This document shows, one piece after another, positions 6,816-19,910 of a stretch of 38,997 nt of DNA. This stretch comes from Patescibacteria group bacterium. GTDB taxonomy: Bacteria; Patescibacteriota; Patescibacteriia; SCPX01. Under the pieces are notes generated by a model. That model did no database searches, was not told the origin of the DNA, and was given only the letters and a program-made list of their open reading frames with translations. Numbering within the stretch: position 1 is the first letter of the stretch; the number at the start of each line of letters is the position of its first letter. The DNA is taken from contig SCPX01000075.1 of the NCBI GenBank assembly GCA_004298615.1, forward strand, positions 1-38,997, read 5' to 3'. The translations under genes were made by a program, and so were the position numbers.

Positions 6816-7880
6816 ATGTCTGGTCAAAAATCATTTTTAGACGACATTGAAAGCATAAAAGAAATAGATTTGGGACACTATCATACATATATTACTGAAA
6901 TTCCGTCCCAATGCGAAACCGCTTACAAACAAATGGCGGATATTAAAATCCCGGAAAATTACAAAAATCCGCAAAATGTGGTGATTTGCTGCATGGGAGG
7001 ATCGGCCATTGGCGCGGATTTGGCCAGAACTTTTTTGCCGGAAGATATAAACGCGCCGGTGATCGTGCATCGCGACTATGATCTGCCAGCCTATGTAAAT
7101 TCAAACACCTTGGTCGTTTGCTCCAGTTTTTCAGGCGAAACCGAAGAAGTCTTGAGCTCTTTTTATGATGCCTTAGCCAAAAAAGCTAAAATGTTCGTGA
7201 TTGCCGGCGGCGGCGCATTGGTAGAGCTGGCCAAAGCAAATAATATTCCTTATTACCAATTTTCCTACAAATCCCAGCCGCGCGCCACTCTTGGTTTTGC
7301 GATGGTCGCGCTTTTGGCGCTGTTTGAAAAAGTTGATATTTTTAAAAATTATTTGGATATCCCAAAAACAGCGGATTTTTTGAAAAAAGTAATATTGGAG
7401 CTTTCTTTGGAAACACCGACCGAGAAAAATAAAGCCAAGCTTTTGGCTTACAAAATTTTTGACCGGATGCTGATAGTGGCGGGGTCCGGCATCCTGACCG
7501 AAGTGGCGAGGCGGTGGAAGTGCCAATTTAATGAAAATGCTAAAGCATTCGCTTTTTTTGAAATTTTGCCGGAGTTGAATCACAACATGGTAGAAGGTAT
7601 TCATTTCCCAAAGCTTATCCGCGACGAAGCGATTTTTTTGCTTTTGGAAAATTCTTTTGATCATCCGCAAAACAAAAAACGCTTCGCCATCCTCAAAGAA
7701 TTATTTGATGAACAAAATGTGGCCTACGAGAGTATTCCGGCCCAAGGCAATACGGTGCTTGAACAAAAACTATCTTCCGTGATTTTCGGAGATTATGTAA
7801 GTTATTATTTGGCGATTCTTAATAAAATAGACCCCACGCCGGTGGAGACGATCCAATGGGCGAAGAAGAAGTTGAAATAA
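6816..7880 (+). CDS. Bifunctional phosphoglucose/phosphomannose isomerase (SIS domain)
   Basis: A 354-aa SIS-fold isomerase of the bifunctional PGI/PMI family, interconverting glucose-6-P, fructose-6-P and mannose-6-P. The first SIS block has CCMGGSAIGADLAR (phosphate loop) and VVCSSFSGETEEVLSS (sugar-phosphate loop); later PELNHNMVEG carries the catalytic Glu/His region. This enzyme is common in archaea and CPR bacteria in place of classic Pgi. It feeds both the glucan operon next door and glycolysis. No SD is seen. Its 3' end is followed after 2 nt by the surface-protein gene, so the two are probably cotranscribed. Confidence 0.9.
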   Translation: MSGQKSFLDDIESIKEIDLGHYHTYITEIPSQCETAYKQMADIKIPENYKNPQNVVICCMGGSAIGADLARTFLPEDINAPVIVHRDYDLPAYVNSNTLVVCSSFSGETEEVLSSFYDALAKKAKMFVIAGGGALVELAKANNIPYYQFSYKSQPRATLGFAMVALLALFEKVDIFKNYLDIPKTADFLKKVILELSLETPTEKNKAKLLAYKIFDRMLIVAGSGILTEVARRWKCQFNENAKAFAFFEILPELNHNMVEGIHFPKLIRDEAIFLLLENSFDHPQNKKRFAILKELFDEQNVAYESIPAQGNTVLEQKLSSVIFGDYVSYYLAILNKIDPTPVETIQWAKKKLK

Positions 7881-7882
7881 GT

Positions 7883-10207
7883 ATGAAGTATAAAGTATTT
7901 AGCATTAAGGAATCATTTGTTTTTTTATTTTTTTGTCTGGCCGTGAGCGGTATTTTTTCGTTTGAGATGGCAAATGAGTCATTAGCCGCGGGCGGTATTT
8001 TAATCAATGAAATATTTTTCAATCCTTCGGGCAGTGATCCGGGAAAAGAGTTTGTTGAATTGTATAATCAGGATTCAAACAGCTATGATCTTAAAAACTG
8101 GTCTTTGAAATTGTCGGACGGAACTTCATTGGCGAAAATCGGATCCATTGCAAGCGATCAGACGACTATTCCGGCTAACGGTTATTTTTTGGTCGGTCTA
8201 AACAATTATGATCAAACTCCAACGGCCGATGTGAAACGATCGGCTTCTTTGCCAAATTCGGCAAAGACTGTTCAATTGTTTGACAATTTAAATGGCGCCA
8301 TTGACAGCGCCTCATACGACGCATCAGTAAGCGAAGGGCAAAGCTGGACGCGAACCAGCCCCCAGCTTCCTACGCCCCAAAATAGCGGTCTGCCAGTTTC
8401 GGTTAGCGCAAATGCAAATTCATCAACCACCGGCGCTAACAGTAATTCCGATGCGCCGACTAACACCAATTCAGGCAATATCAATACTAACGCCAGCTCC
8501 TCGCTTGTTCTTTCCAGTATCATTTTTAACGAAGTTTATCCTAATCCACCGGATGAAAGTACGGAATTTATTGAATTGAAAAACGCGAGCGGATTTGCCG
8601 GATCGCCATTAGGCTGGAAGATTAAAGACGCGAGCGGAGACGAATATAATTTGCCGGACAAAGAGATCGCGAACGGCGCGCTCTGGGTAATTCCTAAATT
8701 AGAGAGCGGAATTTCTTTAAACAATGACGGCGAAACTCTATCATTGATCAATCCGGCCGGCGCCATTGCGGCGACTCTTTCAATCCCCGCCGCTCCGGAA
8801 AGCCAGTCTTACGCCCGAAGCGGCGCGGAAAGCTTTGAATGGACCATCGCTTTGACCGCCGGAGTGGAAAATGTTTTTACGCAAGCTATTTCCGCGCCAG
8901 TCGAAATTGCGGCGCCGGCAAACACAAATTCTTCAGCTTCTAATATTAACGCAAGTAATTCAAACGGTTCGGTTAACGCTAATACAAGTACGAGCGCCAA
9001 TACAAATTCTTCTAAAATCACTATCGATTTTTCTGTTATAAAATTAAGCGAATTAATGCCGAATCCGGCGGGCGACGATGCGGATGGCGAATGGATTGAA
9101 TTGTATAATGGCGGAGACAAAGATATTGATTTGGCCGGCGGATCTTTGAGCGACGCTTCCGGAAAAGCTTATACAATTCCTAAAAATACGAACATTGCCG
9201 CTAAATCGCACAAAGTATTTTATCGCAAACTGACCGGCATTGTCCTTAATAATGATCAAGACGCGATTGATCTGAAAGACTCGTCCGGCAAAAAGATTGA
9301 CAGCGTCTCTTACGCTGACGGAGCGGAAGGAAAATCGTACGCGCTTGGAAAAAACGGCTGGCTTTGGAGTGATCCAACTCCGGACAAAACCAATGTCCAA
9401 GCTGCGGATACTGGAGCCAATGCCAATGAAAATACAAACTCAAACGGTATTAAGCGGGTAGGCGCCACGATCAATGAGGCAAAAAATGCGAAGTCCGGCG
9501 CCATTATCACTGTTTCCGGAATCGTGACGGCGGCATTCGGAGAAATCGCGAAAAATACTTTTTACATACAAGACGATACGGGCGGAATGGCGGTAGTGCT
9601 TGAAAGTACGGCATTGGAAATTTCCCGCGGCGATTTTGTTGTTGTAAAAGGAAAAATGAAAACCAGCGGCGGAGAAAAAATATTGTCCGCGGATGATGAA
9701 AAGCAAATTACGGTTCAATCATCCGGCAATAATGCGGCGGCTTGGCAAATGAATATCGCGGATATTGATTCGCAGTCGCTCGGGCTGTTTATCGGGGTGA
9801 ACGGCAAGGCGGTCGAACTGATTCCCAAAGGATTTATCATTGACGACGGGAGCGGCAGTTTGGCAATATTGCCGCCCGGAGAGACGAGCGCGGAAAAAGG
9901 CCAGATCGCCAGCGTCCAAGGAATATTGAAAAAAACCAAAGACGGCATTGTCTTGATTTTGCGGGACAAAAATGATTTTATTTCCGGAAATGTTTTGGGC
10001 GAAAGCGACCAAAAAAACTTATCAATCGCGGGCGACGGCAAAAAGTATGATATAATTATCCAACTTTTAATTATTATTGTTACGCTGCTTGTCGGGGGCT
10101 ATGCGGCGCGCAAATATTTGCAGAAATATTCTTATGCAACATCAGATACAAAACCTGCCGAAGAATCAAAAAAAGATAGAGATTCTGATTCCGGCTTCGG
10201 ACTTTGA
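7883..10207 (+). CDS. Membrane-anchored lamin-tail domain surface protein
   Basis: About 774 aa. A signal peptide-like segment (VFLFFCLAVSGIFSF) is followed by three lamin-tail domains, each opening with an INEIFFNP / FNEVYPNP / LSELMPNP type strand and containing EFVELYN or EWIELYN, at roughly residues 37-125, 165-285 and 385-490. They are separated by Asn/Thr/Ser-rich linkers. An OB-like module (ITVSGIVTAAFGEIAKNTF, about 530-610) follows, then a C-terminal membrane helix (IIIQLLIIIVTLLVGG) and a short charged tail. It is likely exported and anchored with domains outside. ATG 7883 was chosen because it starts the signal peptide. Its last 74 nt overlap the trigger factor gene out of frame. 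Confidence 0.82.
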   Translation: MKYKVFSIKESFVFLFFCLAVSGIFSFEMANESLAAGGILINEIFFNPSGSDPGKEFVELYNQDSNSYDLKNWSLKLSDGTSLAKIGSIASDQTTIPANGYFLVGLNNYDQTPTADVKRSASLPNSAKTVQLFDNLNGAIDSASYDASVSEGQSWTRTSPQLPTPQNSGLPVSVSANANSSTTGANSNSDAPTNTNSGNINTNASSSLVLSSIIFNEVYPNPPDESTEFIELKNASGFAGSPLGWKIKDASGDEYNLPDKEIANGALWVIPKLESGISLNNDGETLSLINPAGAIAATLSIPAAPESQSYARSGAESFEWTIALTAGVENVFTQAISAPVEIAAPANTNSSASNINASNSNGSVNANTSTSANTNSSKITIDFSVIKLSELMPNPAGDDADGEWIELYNGGDKDIDLAGGSLSDASGKAYTIPKNTNIAAKSHKVFYRKLTGIVLNNDQDAIDLKDSSGKKIDSVSYADGAEGKSYALGKNGWLWSDPTPDKTNVQAADTGANANENTNSNGIKRVGATINEAKNAKSGAIITVSGIVTAAFGEIAKNTFYIQDDTGGMAVVLESTALEISRGDFVVVKGKMKTSGGEKILSADDEKQITVQSSGNNAAAWQMNIADIDSQSLGLFIGVNGKAVELIPKGFIIDDGSGSLAILPPGETSAEKGQIASVQGILKKTKDGIVLILRDKNDFISGNVLGESDQKNLSIAGDGKKYDIIIQLLIIIVTLLVGGYAARKYLQKYSYATSDTKPAEESKKDRDSDSGFGL

Positions 10208-17706: not shown

Positions 17707-17736
17707 TTGACAATTTGTCGATGAATGTTCTAAGAT
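17707..17736 (+). promoter_or_regulatory. Promoter of the helicase-sigma4 gene
   Basis: TTGACA, 18 nt, TAAGAT. Its -35 begins 15 nt past the -35 of the divergent promoter. Predicted leader about 82 nt, ending in AGGGGG 8 nt before ATG 17825. Confidence 0.7.
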
Positions 17737-17824
17737 GGGCTTTAGAGAGAAAATCTTGCGATTTAACGAGCAAGCTCTTAATGTTCTTTGAATTTAAAAC
17801 AACAAAACTAAGGGGGTATTGAAA

Positions 17825-19615
17825 ATGGATGAAAACGAATTAGTTCCATTAATCTTAAGAGAATATCAAATCTCTGTATTTGATAAATTGATGGAATTTG
17901 TTGAGTCAAATAGCCGCAGATTCCATTCGCGCGGTTTCGTGGTTATGCCGTCCGGAGCGGGAAAAACATTGATTTTCACAGAATTCGTTAAAATGCTGAA
18001 CGAAAGAGCAATTATTGTTGCTCCTACGCGCATTATTTTGGAGCAAAACATCAAGGCGATGAGGCGGCAAGAGCCGGAGATGAATATTTCCGTGTACCAT
18101 AAAGACGAGAAAGACCTTTCCGGTCAAGTTGTCTTTACCACCTATCATTCGCTGGTACAGCTGATTAAGAAAAATATTATTCCGCGGGACTTTGCGCGAG
18201 TAGTTATTTTTGACGAGGTTCACCGCTCGCTTTCCTTGGAAAGATCGCGAATTCCGGATCGGTTGAACGCGCTTTGCATCGGTTTCACGGCTACTGATAA
18301 ATTCTCAGTTCAAAAAAATGTGGAGCGGATTTTTCAAAACGAAATTTATCGGATGCACTTGAAGGAAGCGATTGAAGATGGAGTGCTTTTGCCTTTGCGC
18401 GGATTCATAGCTGAAACCAATGTTGATTTAAGTCGCATAAGAATTTCACACAATAATATGTTGGACGAGACCGTGGCTGAACGGATGCTTAATATTGAAG
18501 CGCGCAATAAGGTTGCCCGGGATTATTATTTAAAAAATTTTAAGAATGTTCCGGCTGTTGCTTTTTGCGTCAGTATTGTCCACGCCGAAGCTCTGGCCCG
18601 ATATTTTTCTGATTCTGAAATCAAGGCCGCGGCGATTCATTGCGACACGCCTCACAAAATAAGGCAAGAGATCATAAGAAAATTCAACCACGGCGAACTG
18701 GATATTTTATGTTCGCGCGACGTGCTGATTGAGGGATGGGATTCCGGACGGGTGGCAGTGGCTTTGAATTTACGACCGACTTATTCGTGGGTTTTAGCGG
18801 AACAGCGCGCCTGCCGGGTAGTCCGTCCTCACAAAAACAAAACTTGTGGTATTATTGTTGAATTTCAAGATATTTACCGCCGCAAAGACCAGCCACTTTT
18901 TATTCATCATCTTTTTGGGGAACGCAAATACCGCCAAGGCGGTTTCGTAGCCGCTCCTAGAAAACTCCGCCAGGAAGAAGAAAAAGCGGTGGAACGGGAC
19001 GAACCGGTTTATGTATTTGAAGGATTGCAAGTTTCCTCGTCTGTTCAAGAAGTGGTTAGTATCGGGTCATTGTCGCCAACCATAGATTTCAACGATGTTA
19101 GACTAATCAAAGAAATTTTTTCATCCAAGCCGGAGATTGATTATTCTGAATTAACATCGCATCAATTCATTCAACTGAAATTCAGTCACCCGAAGTTTAG
19201 AGGCGTCGGAGATACATTGGCGCGAAAATACTTAGGCGCTCTTTGGGATAAAAGCCCAGAAAGCTATCGGATATTAGTAGAGGATGTGTTTGGAGATGAG
19301 ATGTTTTATCAGCATTTTGAAGTTAATAGATCTTTGGCAGAATCTTTCCCCAGCGCCGATCCAAGCCCTGAAGAAATCGTTTTTAGCCGTGAATTCCAAA
19401 AAGCAGTAAAAAGGGCGCTAAAAACATTACTGCCTCATGAAGAAAAAGTGATAAAGGAAAGGTTTTGGGATGAAAAAACTTTTTTTCAGATTGGTCAAGG
19501 TTTTGGTCGTTTCTCTGATATGTCCTGTCGGACTCGACCTCCTCAGATTCTGAATAAGGCGCTTCGCAAGCTCCGACATCCTTCTAGAAGCAAACGCCTT
19601 GAGCCGTTTTATTAA
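17825..19615 (+). CDS. SF2 (DEAD/DEAH) helicase with C-terminal sigma-70 region 4-like domain
   Basis: A 596-aa protein. Residues 1-370 form an SF2 helicase/translocase: LREYQ near 11-15, Walker A PSGAGKT (42-48), VAPTR, DEVH (130-133), GFTAT, and motif VI QRACRVVRPH (about 327-336), a pattern seen in XPB/Res-type DNA translocases. Residues about 510-594 resemble the end of a primary sigma factor: DPSPEE, then ALKTLLPHEEKVIKERF and KALRKLRHPSRSKRL, nearly identical to RpoD region 4. Regions 1-3 are absent. The recognition helix is altered (about five extra residues and a PP pair), so -35 binding may be weakened while RNA polymerase flap binding could remain (inference). SD-bearing single gene next to nusA; no frameshift evident. 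Confidence 0.85.
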   Translation: MDENELVPLILREYQISVFDKLMEFVESNSRRFHSRGFVVMPSGAGKTLIFTEFVKMLNERAIIVAPTRIILEQNIKAMRRQEPEMNISVYHKDEKDLSGQVVFTTYHSLVQLIKKNIIPRDFARVVIFDEVHRSLSLERSRIPDRLNALCIGFTATDKFSVQKNVERIFQNEIYRMHLKEAIEDGVLLPLRGFIAETNVDLSRIRISHNNMLDETVAERMLNIEARNKVARDYYLKNFKNVPAVAFCVSIVHAEALARYFSDSEIKAAAIHCDTPHKIRQEIIRKFNHGELDILCSRDVLIEGWDSGRVAVALNLRPTYSWVLAEQRACRVVRPHKNKTCGIIVEFQDIYRRKDQPLFIHHLFGERKYRQGGFVAAPRKLRQEEEKAVERDEPVYVFEGLQVSSSVQEVVSIGSLSPTIDFNDVRLIKEIFSSKPEIDYSELTSHQFIQLKFSHPKFRGVGDTLARKYLGALWDKSPESYRILVEDVFGDEMFYQHFEVNRSLAESFPSADPSPEEIVFSREFQKAVKRALKTLLPHEEKVIKERFWDEKTFFQIGQGFGRFSDMSCRTRPPQILNKALRKLRHPSRSKRLEPFY

Positions 19616-19651
19616 TCACCTCTTTGCTTTATAGGGTCACGGTATTTGAGT

Positions 19652-19685
19652 GAGGCGTAGTCTTTACGATGCGCCTCCTCTTTTT
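19652..19685 (+). terminator. Terminator of the helicase-sigma4 gene
   Basis: GAGGCG/CGCCTC stem with a 14-nt loop, followed by CTCTTTTTCTTT. Confidence 0.7.
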
Positions 19686-19731
19686 CTTTAAAGAGATGTG
19701 TATTATTAAAATTGATCTGCGCCGGCTGAAT

Positions 19732-19770: not shown

Positions 19771-19798
19771 ACTAGCCAATTAGGCTAGTCATTTTTTT
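19771..19798 (+). terminator. Mini-attenuator in the nusA leader
   Basis: Perfect 7-bp stem ACTAGCC/GGCTAGT, 5-nt loop, then CATTTTTTT. It begins about 5 nt after the predicted transcription start, so terminated RNA would be about 33 nt. Confidence 0.75.
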
Positions 19799-19910
19799 AC
19801 CCGCCTAAGTTTTTGCGTTTTATTCATTCTTAAATTAAGACGTTTAAGGTTAGGTATAAATATAATAAAGTAGAAACGAGATTGCGTTGGACACAAAAAT
19901 TTGGGCGGGT
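19799..19910. repeat. CCCGCC/GGCGGG inverted repeat in the nusA leader
   Basis: Left arm ACCCGCCTAAGTTTTTG (19799-19815) and right arm CAAAAATTTGGGCGGGT (19894-19910) pair with two mismatches. The same arm family flanks tRNA-Ala and tRNA-Val elsewhere in the window. The 78 nt inside show no tRNA. Confidence 0.7.

Follow-up and report, generated by a model that had tools for sequence, protein, structure and literature searches.

An SF2 helicase fused to a predicted C-terminal sigma-70 region 4 in a Patescibacteria group bacterium

RESULTS

A helicase and sigma region 4 in one reading frame

In a 38,997-nucleotide stretch of a Patescibacteria genome (termed the window, i.e., the whole stretch of DNA that was analyzed), one open reading frame on the plus strand (positions 17825 [ATG] to 19615 [TAA]) encodes a 596-aa SF2 helicase that ends in a sigma-70 region 4. 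The gene is present in a single copy in the 1.15-Mb genome, and its product comprises an SF2 motor core (aa 10 to 365), a mid domain (aa ∼424 to 492), and the C-terminal region 4 (aa ∼513 to 596). Sequence comparisons and a structural model together confirm as real the predicted fusion of an SF2 motor to about 85 aa of sigma-70 factor. We tentatively propose, with confidence just short of even, that region 4 brings the motor to RNA polymerase and/or to DNA close to promoters and that the motor, pulling on DNA at the expense of ATP, would there remodel or clear the polymerase.

The motor core (positions 17852 to 18919, plus strand) was recognized from Pfam, Foldseek, and motif analyses. A preliminary description of this DNA had read it as a complete SF2 translocase, and indeed every one of motifs I to VI is intact (PSGAGKT, FDEVH, FTATD, FCVS, EGWDS, and QRACRVVR), with Pfam matches to ResIII (6e-24) and Helicase_C (1e-14). 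The core resembles those of RadD (YejH) and the XPB family, the best Foldseek match being RadD (8h5y; 1.1e-18), followed by SauUSI and XPB. The NCBIfam RadD model scored 93 bits, below its cutoff of 720, which places the protein outside RadD proper, and RadD has a C-terminal part of its own, whereas the window protein carries the mid domain and sigma region 4 instead. Pfam scans of the protein found neither a nuclease domain nor a CarD-like RID or TRCF C-terminal domain, as would mark an Mfd, and the TRCF domain was not found in the genome either.

The mid domain (∼70 aa; positions 19094 to 19300, plus strand), modeled with a pLDDT of about 94, shows the pattern F..L.F.H.LF.G.G..LLR.LG and matched no named family. 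When the window protein was left out of a mid-domain profile, the profile still retrieved it (1e-5) together with its near relatives L037 and L054, and the same profile had no match in 15 other helicases.

The tail matches sigma-70 region 4 in sequence and predicted fold

The tail (aa 513 to 596; positions 19361 to 19612, plus strand) consists of an acidic DPSPEE linker followed by region 4, and its reading as the end of RpoD joined to a helicase is borne out by independent comparisons. The last 211 aa matched SigA region 4 in the PDB (phmmer, E value of 2.2e-7), and Pfam Sigma70_r4 (PF04545; cutoff of 24.1 bits) scored 27.7 bits on the last 89 aa, 24.4 bits on the last 211 aa, and, slightly below the cutoff, 21.3 bits on the whole protein. 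The 89-aa tail also scored 41 bits against the RpoD model NF004208; the protein does not belong to RpoD, as regions 2 and 3 are missing, and phmmer, Pfam, and NCBIfam gave no sigma match outside the tail. An AlphaFold model of aa 346 to 596, built with 18 relatives, predicted a confident helical fold (pLDDT mostly 86 to 96 in region 4). When this model was compared with the PDB by Foldseek, the top 50 matches were all sigma factors, the kind of match that the preliminary description had named as support for its reading. The Foldseek E values for region 4 were modest (0.005 to 0.08), in keeping with the small size of the domain and the disordered beginning of the modeled fragment, and isolated SigA region 4 chains superposed on the model at an rmsd of about 1.7 to 2.7 Å, with 34 to 40% identity. 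In sum, the tail shares with RpoD/SigA the region 4 fold, the DPSPEE entry, and an H5 with RHPSRSKRL, and differs from these factors by lacking regions 1 to 3, by a longer turn, a shorter loop, and changed −35 residues, and by the attached motor. The same genome encodes a 378-aa protein (L002, G000:C75) that begins with a region 4-like domain and continues with a long C-terminal part of another kind.

The flap side is kept and the −35 helix is altered in the window protein

In E. coli sigma70 numbering, the window tail keeps R584, R586, and Q589 and carries the changes R554H, E585T, I587P, and R588P. The −35-reading residues R584, E585, R588, and Q589 are thus R, T, P, and Q, two of the four being kept, which falls short of a −35 reader. 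The turn preceding the recognition helix is 5 residues longer than in sigma70, and the H2-H3 loop is 4 residues shorter. According to the alignment and the model, the altered turn and recognition helix span aa 562 to 584 (SCRTRPPQILNKALRKLR; positions 19508 to 19576, plus strand), with the five additional residues and the Pro-Pro at I587-R588 exactly where they had been described. On the flap side, the H1/H2 core, the equivalents of F563 and L598, and H5 KALRKLRHPSRSKRL (RHPSRSKRL) are kept. H5 is kept even though the organism's own RpoD lacks RHPSRS, which we count in favor of docking on RNA polymerase. The window tail scored 38 bits against the tail of the relative L041, 38 bits against the RpoD of another genome, and 14.5 bits against its own RpoD.

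In sigma factors, the flap is contacted by H1, H2, and H5 and their vicinity, and the −35 element by the HTH (review PMC2988021). On this map, the earlier suggestion that flap contact is retained and −35 reading changed holds for the window protein; it does not carry over to the family. Across 18 family tails, R586 is found in 16 and Q589 in 12, whereas the HP of H5 is present in only 3; several members retain RERIRQ or RERVRQ and have lost the H5 tail, and some stop directly after the HTH. Such a pattern, a conserved HTH with a mostly lost flap side, is what would be expected if region 4 were a plain DNA-binding HTH that loads the helicase at promoter-like or other sites without RNA polymerase. 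A further point for this main rival to our proposal comes from the helicase relatives L010, L038, and L055, which in the same place carry C-terminal tandem repeats of ∼40 aa (...F.EL..EV.A.GI.S...Y......WPS.P..FY...W.GW..FLGK) that look like exchangeable DNA-targeting parts. It fits the window protein poorly, because there the DNA-reading helix changed and H5 stayed, and we regard it as possible but rather doubtful.

The same residues bear on two further readings. A tail with its flap side kept and its −35 helix altered could mimic sigma and keep RpoD region 4 from the flap by competition, the protein being mainly a transcription regulator; the motor motifs, all intact, would be needless for competition alone, and many relatives keep the −35 residues, making such a role unlikely. 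The odd recognition helix could also hint at an assembly or frameshift artifact or a decayed gene, as could the closest relative, L037, which stops before region 4. The frame is single and open, with a terminator at its end, many independent genomes share the architecture, and the five-residue insertion in the turn is also found in the relative L013, so there is no obvious frameshift in the helix; other frames, inspected by eye, gave no canonical helix either. We consider an artifact extremely improbable.

Relationships among the fused helicases

In a tree of the motor cores, the window protein pairs with L037 (100/99), separately from a 17-member clade with the core-mid-tail architecture (100/100). 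A grouping of the window protein, L037, and the large clade was not demonstrated, nor was it rejected (AU test, P = 0.32), and a single origin of the fusion was accordingly not adopted. L037 is 41% identical to the window protein and lacks region 4. The preliminary description had envisaged, as evidence against a true fusion, relatives without the domain beside a sigma gene that supplies it; L037 bears out the first half, and the second was not seen, since its 9.4-kb locus contains no region 4 or sigma gene. Either L037 lost the tail or the window protein gained it separately; the longer turn common to the window protein and L013 weakly favors common descent.

In the large sister clade, Thr replaces the second arginine of motif VI (QKxFxRPMT) in all readable members (L013, L014, L015, L041, L043 to L046, L049, L053, L058 to L060, L065, L067, L070, and L077), and the window protein and L037 keep Arg. 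The substitution suggests altered ATP hydrolysis, and motor activity may therefore differ in that clade.

Distribution of the family

A search for the same fusion in other CPR genomes, as had been advised, was successful. With a C-terminal profile, we found the mid-plus-tail architecture in about 14 of the 381 genomes of the same CPR class, a count that includes G088, where the frame is broken (310 aa), and some degenerate tails. Likewise, among 380 genomes sampled from the phylum, the architecture occurred only in members of that class. CPR relatives with named records belong to "Candidatus Uhrbacteria" and other Patescibacteria. Outside the CPR, five contigs (L058, L059, L060, L065, and L067), which come from Myxococcota/Deltaproteobacteria and from proteobacterial MAGs, show the core-mid-tail order. 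Independent Pfam scans placed region 4 above the cutoff in L141, L139, L148, L147, L060, and L067, and L139 reached 98.9 bits against RpoD; in L043, L045, L014, L059, and L070, the tail lies at the right place and is degenerate. Two helicase-plus-HTH matches on plasmids, from Waddlia and Alicyclobacillus, proved to be separate neighboring genes and were discarded. A phage origin was also set aside, as no relative with region 4 was found in the phages or viral contigs searched.

The TRCF domain was found in 0 of the 14 queried genomes versus 25 of 95 in the class; Fisher's exact test gave P = 0.02 when the 13 genomes possessing the mid-tail architecture were considered. We attribute this absence to kinship rather than to replacement of Mfd, because sampled members of the same families without the fusion also lack TRCF.

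A second helicase-sigma fusion

A different helicase branch contains another combination: in L016 (positions 1 to 2544 of the locus, minus strand; G081:C15), an SF2 helicase and sigma regions 2.4 to 4.1 share a single frame. The sigma part matched SigA in the PDB (E value of 6.8e-8 over 185 aa) and TIGR02997 (1.8e-14). The helicase core is partly masked, and continuity of the frame across the gap is judged from the flanking sequence. The L016 branch is long, and its relatives end in tandem repeats. The repeated joining of such helicases to sigma parts is more suggestive of transcription than of a chance capture of an HTH, and a sigma portion as large as that of L016 would be needless for a mere HTH. 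It is possible, at a confidence clearly below even, that SF2 translocases took up sigma parts at least twice (region 4, and regions 2.4 to 4), giving undescribed sigma-tethered motors that would load on RNA polymerase via the β-flap, chiefly among members of one CPR class and of Myxococcota.

Genetic context

As previously described, the fusion gene adjoins nusA, the next gene downstream on the same strand. Of the signals proposed to make it a separate transcription unit, the Shine-Dalgarno-like AAGGGGG (positions 17810 to 17816, plus strand, 8 nt 5' of the ATG, from sequence) and the terminator stood: folding and sequence show a hairpin followed by a T-rich tail (positions 19648 to 19690, plus strand), the hairpin itself (19648 to 19680) having −19 kcal/mol and a z score of −3.05. 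The promoter fared less well: a TTGACA-18-TAAGAT sequence exists (positions 17707 to 17736, plus strand; 10/12 match), but promoter-like matches near the gene (6) show no excess over shuffled sequences (4.6 ± 2.3). A second terminator-like hairpin lies 5' of nusA (positions 19771 to 19799, plus strand). The neighbors in the window also include genes for an H+-pyrophosphatase, aminoacyl-tRNA synthetase, and glutamate dehydrogenase. Positions 7856 to 10204 of the window encode a 783-aa protein containing three Lamin Tail Domain stretches.

Among the family loci, we found no common neighbor and, in particular, no conserved transcription-linked one. Twenty neighbors were scanned across loci, and those matched to families were ordinary (M50 protease, UvrB, GltX, thymidylate kinase, EPSP synthase, and RecQ). 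From these ordinary surroundings, the fusion gene probably acts alone, outside any conserved cluster. They also disagree with a defense island, which we rejected, and with the broader notion of a genome-defense or mobile-element helicase whose region 4 helps sense phage or foreign transcription. Its patchy spread and weak PADLOC similarities (type IV restriction enzymes and PbeA for the core, MzaA for the tail) would suit such a function, whereas the lack of a nuclease domain match, the ordinary cellular neighbors, and the failure to find region 4 in viral relatives make it very unlikely.

DISCUSSION

The helicase-sigma region 4 proteins apparently form a small undescribed family. The preliminary description knew of no characterized protein of this design, and our literature search, which covered few subscription papers, likewise returned no SF2 motor with sigma region 4. 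The combination is what is new; region 4-like tails, as in MzaA, and RNA polymerase-bound motors are already known. MzaA, from the MZA anti-phage system, has a C-terminal sigma-like region 4 (NF041931 positions 623 to 713) like the window protein; the similarity is limited to the tail (39 bits, against a cutoff of 800, so the protein is not an MzaA), and searches for MzaA returned only unrelated papers. Mfd, RapA, and HelD are RNA polymerase-associated motors, tethered, like PcrA/UvrD, through Tudor, RID, or other folds rather than sigma region 4. All are helicase-type ATPases attached to RNA polymerase, an attachment that for the window protein is possible, and all belong to SF1 or to other SF2 branches, unlike the window protein. 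A precedent for a tethered motor is provided by PcrA, which is bound to RNA polymerase by its C-terminal domain, and by UvrD, whose core cross-links to the β-flap tip (PMC8318588).

According to our proposal, the protein would be an ATP-driven motor on double-stranded DNA with sigma region 4 as its address tag. The tag would dock on RNA polymerase, most likely on the β-flap via H1, H2, and H5 as in sigma factors, and/or on promoter-proximal DNA, and the motor would then pull the adjacent duplex and thereby remodel, push, or clear a stalled, initiating, or leftover polymerase. The polymerase contact, the translocation, and its outcome are inferred. An address tag is supported by the sequence and structure matches of region 4 and by the recurrence of the core-mid-region 4 order in genomes that are only distantly related. 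The rarity of the HP of H5 among family tails, the tail-less L037, and the lack of a conserved transcription-linked neighbor count against it.

If region 4 does tether the motor to RNA polymerase, these proteins would represent a new way to join a translocase and transcription, and this in bacteria where both transcription and repair have received little study. The fusion offers a directly testable case, through flap binding and promoter loading, and L016 provides a separate natural design, in which one protein unites a helicase with most of a sigma factor.
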